This document shows positions 41,374-43,935 of a stretch of DNA of 64,000 nucleotides, piece after piece; the first letter of the stretch is position 1; every line of letters begins with the position of its first letter. Where the stretch lies: NCBI GenBank assembly GCA_016872115.1, contig VHBC01000001.1, positions 124,001 through 188,000 of the forward strand. The letters run 5' to 3'. The notes beneath the pieces are model-generated. The model made no database searches and was not told the origin of the DNA. It saw only the letters and a list, made by a program, of their open reading frames with translations. The DNA is from Sphingomonadales bacterium. GTDB lineage: Bacteria; Bacteroidota; Bacteroidia; Flavobacteriales_D; Crocinitomicaceae. Made by a program: the position numbers and the translations under genes.

Positions 41374-41447
41374 CTCCCCCTGCTGGACTTGAACCAGCGA
41401 CCCTCTGATTAACAGTCAGATGCTCTAACCAACTGAGCTAAGGAGGA
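41374..41447 (-). tRNA. tRNA-Asn (anticodon GTT)
   Basis: Minus strand TCCTCCTTAGCTCAGTTGGTTAGAGCATCTGACTGTTAATCAGAGGGTCGCTGGTTCAAGTCCAGCAGGGGGAG; acceptor, D, anticodon and T arms fold; CCA not encoded. Confidence 0.96.
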
Positions 41448-42578: not shown

Positions 42579-43859
42579 TTAAATTAATTGCTTTACAAAA
42601 TTAGGTAGCGCAAAAGTTGAGAAGTGGATGTCTTCGTTGTAGTAACGAAGTCCTTTCTCTGCAACAAAAGCTTTGATAGTTTCGGTGTTATTTATTTTGC
42701 GCGGATCCGCTGCGCCTTTGAGACCGTATTGGAAACTCCACATACCGGTAGGGTAAGTAGGAACAAAGAATAAGCCCACAGGAGCGTTGTTTGAGCCGAA
42801 TATACCTTGCAAGGTCTGATTAAGTTCAGCGAAAGCTTTTTCATTAAATTTCGGAGACTCTCCTTGGGCCACCAAAATGCCGTCGGCCTTAAGGGTTCGG
42901 TAACAATTTTGATAGAAGTCTACGCTAAACAAGCCTTCTGCAGGACCTACTGGGTCAGAGCCGTCTACGATTAAAAGATCGTAAACTGCATCAGGTGCAT
43001 TTTTAACAAACGCAATGCCATCGTCGACAATAAGTTCTAAACGCGGGTCGTTAAAAGCTGCGGCAATTTGTGGAAGGTGCTCTTTACAAGCCTTGATGAC
43101 TTCGCCGTCGATTTCGACCATCGTTACTTTCTCGATGTTGCTGTGACGCAAAACCTCACGGACTGTTCCGCCGTCGCCACCACCAATAACCAATACATTT
43201 TTAGCATTTTGGAGCGTGAAAAGACTCGGATGGGCAATCATTTCGTGGTAGTGAAACTCGTCCTTGATAGTGGTCATGACCATATCATCTAAGGCGAGCA
43301 TTTTACCGTATTTGGTAGATTCAAGAATGCGCACACGCTGAAACGGAGATTGCACATCAAAAAAGACATCGCCTGTGAAGCGCAAAGAGAGCGCTTGATC
43401 TTCGTCTTTGTCAGTGAACCAAACGTTTCGGGTGTAGAAATCAGGATTGCGCCATTCGGCTGCTTTTTCGCGAGCGGTAGTGATGTCAAAGTCGTTGCGC
43501 GTCAATAAATTGACAGAACCACGCTTCATTTCGATAGCAGAATAAGATTTGGCACCAAAGCACTCTTTAAGGTGATCAAAGGCAATCCAAGCGTTCATGT
43601 CACCACATGTAAAAACATCGACAGCAGCATAACCGTATTCTGGCCAAGTATGAATAGCGAGGTGGCTTTCTTGGATCACAACTACACCTGATACACCGTA
43701 AGGAGAAAAATGGTGAAAGGTAGAGTTGATTACAGTGGCTTCTGCCTTACGTGCAGCGCCAACCATATCGCGTTCAATCGCCGCGACATCATTCATAACA
43801 TGCGGATCACAATTCATAAACTCCACCAAAATGTGGTTTCCAAGTGCTGTGTTGCTCAT
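42579..43859 (-). CDS. Bifunctional S-adenosylmethionine decarboxylase proenzyme / spermidine synthase fusion
   Basis: Residues ~1-125: class 1B AdoMetDC '[24 protein letters not shown]'. Residues ~135-426: SpeE '[33 protein letters not shown]', '[19 protein letters not shown]'. One continuous ORF. Confidence 0.95.
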
Positions 43860-43935
43860 TTTTCTGTTTAAAATTTAAAAATTGACCGCAAAGGTACGGA
43901 ATTTCAAAGGATTGATGTGTAATGTATGTTAAATT

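Follow-up and report, generated by a model that had tools for sequence, protein, structure and literature searches.

One bifunctional protein very probably carries out the two final steps in the making of spermidine, a common polyamine, in a Crocinitomicaceae genome of the phylum Bacteroidota; its putrescine probably comes from the action of a SpeA-like decarboxylase followed by an agmatinase-like ureohydrolase, and the gene fusion that produced it most likely occurred once. The window, i.e. the whole stretch of 64,000 nucleotides analysed here, contains this speD-speE fusion gene on the minus strand at 42579..43859, with an ATG start and 426 codons plus a stop, giving a protein of 426 aa. The frame is single throughout and has no internal stop, and both domains are complete by Pfam and NCBIfam, which bears out the uninterrupted 426-codon AdoMet decarboxylase-spermidine synthase frame described in a sequence-only reading of this DNA; the motifs named there, E64-S65-H, GGGDGG (residues 226-231) and DGSDPVGP, are all present. 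As both domains, SpeD first, share one uninterrupted frame which is kept in relatives, we class the protein as a SpeD-SpeE fusion enzyme. In the 2.2 Mb genome of the window (99.99% complete), the gene is the only match to AdoMet_dc (PF02675) and the only match to Spermine_synth (PF01564), and a search of the whole genome with these two profiles gave no separate second copy of SpeD or SpeE, as one would expect for such a fusion, although its absence is no strict requirement.

The N-terminal part is a class 1b S-adenosylmethionine (AdoMet) decarboxylase domain, SpeD, at residues ~5-116 (43512..43847, minus strand), delimited by PF02675 and by the alignment with T. maritima SpeD (1tlu). The Pfam profile matches residues 9-114 with E 2.7e-41 over positions 1-107 of 107, the NCBIfam family TIGR03330 (SpeD) scores 143.4 bits against a curated cut-off of 75.65 over positions 2-112 of 112, and the T. 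maritima protein aligns over residues 5-116 at 3.3e-40. In the latter alignment S65, H70 and C85 fall on S63, H68 and C83 of T. maritima, which are named as essential in processing and catalysis (PMC10407285), and these three residues, as well as P73, are invariant across an alignment of 35 fusions. E64-S65-H66 (43662..43670, minus strand) is hence the predicted self-cleavage site with the pyruvoyl serine, S65 aligning with T. maritima S63. A cut before S65 would leave chains with computed masses of 6.9 kDa (residues 1-64) and 40.7 kDa (residues 65-426), and the earlier proposal of cleavage at E64/S65 into fragments of about 7 and 40 kDa agrees with both the alignment and these masses.

The C-terminal part, residues ~145-426 (42582..43427, minus strand), is an aminopropyltransferase domain, SpeE, delimited by PRK00811 (residues 145-425; 326 bits against a curated cut-off of 260), TIGR00417 speE (residues 147-421; 292.4 bits against 249.55) and Foldseek. 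Pfam divides it into the spermidine synthase tetramerisation domain Spermine_synt_N (PF17284, residues 146-197, 4.3e-11) and the catalytic domain Spermine_synth (PF01564, residues 201-378, 2.2e-59), and G226-D229-G230 of GGGDGG, D251, D280 and D299 are invariant in the 35 fusions. The AlphaFold2 monomer model, built from 35 sequences, is confident in both domains (mean pLDDT 83.7, pTM 0.65), with low-confidence stretches at residues 114-127 and 135-158. Its best Foldseek match is the Synechococcus spermidine synthase 6qmm, and every one of the top 50 fold matches is a spermidine synthase, with ~260-290 columns aligned; among these 50, it is the SpeE half only that is matched. Between the Pfam matches lies an interdomain linker, residues ~117-144 (43428..43511, minus strand), mostly of low pLDDT and predicted by the model to be poorly ordered or disordered. 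The junction had previously been put at about residues 125-137: its position between the domains stands, while the linker is slightly longer.

On these grounds the protein very probably works as follows. The N-terminal SpeD domain would fold and then cleave itself between E64 and S65, converting S65 into the pyruvoyl group that heads the long chain. The pyruvoyl SpeD domain would decarboxylate AdoMet, and the SpeE domain, carried on the same long chain, would pass the aminopropyl group of decarboxylated AdoMet on to putrescine to form spermidine, the putrescine probably being made from arginine by the SpeA-like decarboxylase and the agmatinase-like enzyme encoded elsewhere in the genome. The fusion would hold the two activities at a one-to-one ratio. 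A further gain from the covalent link in this family-wide Crocinitomicaceae fusion, such as channelling of decarboxylated AdoMet within a SpeE oligomer, seems to us decidedly unlikely. Channelling had been suggested in the sequence-only reading and finds no support here: the AlphaFold2 monomer, which as a monomer cannot test an oligomer, predicts no fixed domain packing or interface. Since the modelled linker is disordered and pTM is 0.65, channelling through a rigid domain interface draws no support from the monomer model.

An error of sequencing or assembly that merged two genes into one frame is a practically negligible explanation. No evidence favouring it was found, and the same single frame occurs in 80 other records and across the family. 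A scan of genome contigs for related loci (78-97% best-segment identity) gave both domains in one frame in 80/80 of those fetched, which include Crocinitomicaceae, Fluviicola, Taishania, Lishizhenia and other Flavobacteriales; this single-frame fusion is present, for one, in the named Taishania pollutisoli genome. In the family of the window, 67 of 100 genomes have an AdoMet_dc match, 64 of them strong; for 58 of these 64 the open frame is 425 aa or longer, and five of the six shorter ones adjoin contig ends. The three weak matches among the 67 are short separate proteins of ~100 aa. We thus reject the artefact because all 80 related loci are single-frame and 58/64 strong family matches have frames of this length; the earlier suggestion to look for an assembly merge, or for separate genes in sister genomes, was followed, and the fusion was not refuted. 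In three genomes of the window's family (G047:C5:177779-178018, G089:C187:11253-11492 and G081:C1:16124-16339) the fusion is replaced by a SpeD homologue alone, short (~100 aa) and divergent, with E ~1e-13. It could also be asked whether the N-terminal domain has been repurposed to decarboxylate arginine or ornithine instead of AdoMet, as SpeD homologues with such roles are widespread in bacteria (PMC10407285). This is most improbable here and was rejected: the domain matches a bona fide AdoMet decarboxylase over residues 5-116 at 3e-40, it keeps the catalytic residues together with P73, probably the proline reported as the mark of true AdoMet decarboxylases, and the genome has no other AdoMet_dc match which could supply the SpeE domain.

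The product and the acceptor of the SpeE domain call for similar weighing, the more so as motifs cannot separate spermidine from spermine synthases. The pattern that PMC11107197 gives for spermine synthases is matched by Asp229, Gly231 and Glu249, and several SpeD-SpeE fusions tested, such as those of Pelagibacter and deltaproteobacteria, make spermine (PMC11107197, PMC12803844), so that substantial spermine besides or in place of spermidine might be expected. However, these residues are not decisive because the T. maritima spermidine synthase, a spermidine-only maker in PMC11107197, has them too. The best scores of the domain are to spermidine synthases, against only 51 bits to human spermine synthase, the fold matches point the same way, and the fusion is the sole aminopropyltransferase match in the genome; we thus hold spermine to be unlikely. 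As to the acceptor, the genome has a SpeA-like decarboxylase of 465 aa and a ureohydrolase resembling agmatinase, whose best-matching families are SpeA and agmatinase, each below its equivalog cut-off, as well as an arginase-like protein just below its cut-off. Putrescine is thus probably made by the first two, and the likely route, as read from gene content, is arginine to agmatine to putrescine to spermidine. Neither a SpeY-like (deoxyhypusine-synthase-like) protein nor an agmatine deiminase has a match in the genome, and the homospermidine and agmatine deiminase routes were rejected on that account. The same two enzymes would also suit a route in which agmatine is the main acceptor and N1-aminopropylagmatine is converted to spermidine by the agmatinase-like ureohydrolase, bypassing putrescine. 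This route is possible since most bacterial spermidine synthases accept agmatine (17/18 of those tested) and no sequence motif separates putrescine from agmatine users (PMC11107197); yet nothing here favours agmatine, and we regard it as doubtful, with putrescine as the preferred acceptor. The SpeA-like gene (L112:1273-2670) is the sole Orn_Arg_deC_N match in the genome, and since this single match is SpeA-like, no separate diaminopimelate decarboxylase (LysA) is seen in the search with that family; lysine auxotrophy or a missing gene is possible.

Regarding the origin of the fusion, AdoMet_dc matches occur in 80 of 396 genomes of the phylum. Among the loci fetched, many Bacteroidota families (f14, f21, f24 and others) keep speD and speE as two genes, close together on the same strand, and the window-type fusion is found in f8, f16, f55 and one f17 genome. 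The separate adjacent genes (L086-L111) are homologous to the fusion domains (SpeD ~56-62% and SpeE ~43-54% identity) and are mostly in the same order and strand, but they form two reading frames rather than one. Because speD and speE are neighbours in so many other Bacteroidota lineages, the fusion was probably produced when two such adjacent genes were joined, in an ancestor where speD would have stood directly before speE, and would now be common to a few Bacteroidota families. In the trees of each domain, the 30 window-type fusions are set off from the unfused genes. With long-branch rows removed and T. maritima and Synechococcus sequences added, a single branch still divides them from the rest, but its support with these outside sequences is weak (15 for SpeE, 67 for SpeD). 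One joining event is most likely, as the simplest reading, though with this weak support more than one joining, or later splitting, may have taken place. Several other arrangements were seen. Three f17 genomes have a second, divergent and shorter SpeD-SpeE fusion type of 366-380 aa (L119:1809-2948, L120:1378-2475, L121:1435-2535), unlike the f17 genome G444 (L104) with its window-type fusion. One f24 genome has a 619-aa frame (L117:968-2824, minus strand; G301:C65:32467-34323) with a SET domain at 33-143, AdoMet_dc at 210-315 and spermidine synthase at 358-578, which keeps the SpeD catalytic residues; among other genomes of its genus 22/27 match, all with separate SpeD or SpeE stretches, the triple frame being in G301 alone. 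In L118:2-2181 (G329), two open frames counted from stop to stop, one SpeE-like (536 aa) and one for SpeD (295 aa), share ~300 bases of the same strand but are read in different frames.

Around the gene, comparison of neighbours across relatives gave no conserved polyamine operon; only close relatives retain the MutS2-like, FKBP and SSB genes beside it. Downstream, an FKBP-type prolyl isomerase gene (PF00254; 42065..42571, minus strand) lies 7 bases after the fusion stop and is probably co-transcribed with it, although outside the spermidine pathway. Upstream, a candidate Bacteroidota -7 promoter box, TACCTTTG (43889..43896, minus strand), lies 29 bases before the ATG; it was picked by the consensus that we take to be TANNTTTG, a motif so frequent by chance that the candidate is weak. 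No RNA regulator was found near the gene, only a tRNA gene at 41374-41447 (minus strand), shortly downstream of the SSB-like gene.

SpeD-SpeE fusions are already known in other bacteria, and what we describe is this known architecture in Crocinitomicaceae; the suspicion that it was a lineage variant is upheld by its conservation in relatives and by the published cases. In the part of the literature covered, no papers on polyamines or such a fusion in this family were found. The window's protein adds a family-wide Bacteroidota case, and the unfused neighbours in other Bacteroidota suggest how it arose, which is of use for annotation and for studies of polyamine enzyme fusion, leaving existing knowledge unchanged. 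As far as Green et al. (2011, Mol Microbiol 81:1109) is represented in PMC12803844, bacterial AdoMet decarboxylase-spermidine synthase fusions are functional and of independent origin, with a class 1b SpeD at the N-terminus and an aminopropyltransferase at the C-terminus of one polypeptide, as here. The Ca. Pelagibacter fusions have an AdoMet decarboxylase domain that works in E. coli deleted for speD (PMC11107197), a deltaproteobacterial and a Krumholzibacterial fusion likewise have an active one (PMC12803844), and these homologous fusions restore spermidine in such a strain (PMC11107197, PMC12803844). The Ca. Pelagibacter proteins have the same domain order but also make spermine and thermospermine (PMC11107197), whereas the window's protein is a predicted spermidine maker. 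The same order is found in the deltaproteobacterial and Krumholzibacterial AdoMet decarboxylase-spermine synthase fusions and in animal spermine synthase, which derives from such a fusion (PMC12803844); these are spermine makers, while the SpeE of the window is spermidine-synthase-like. Finally, animal spermine synthase has lost its AdoMet decarboxylase activity (PMC12803844), whereas S65, H70 and C85 are all retained in the protein described here.
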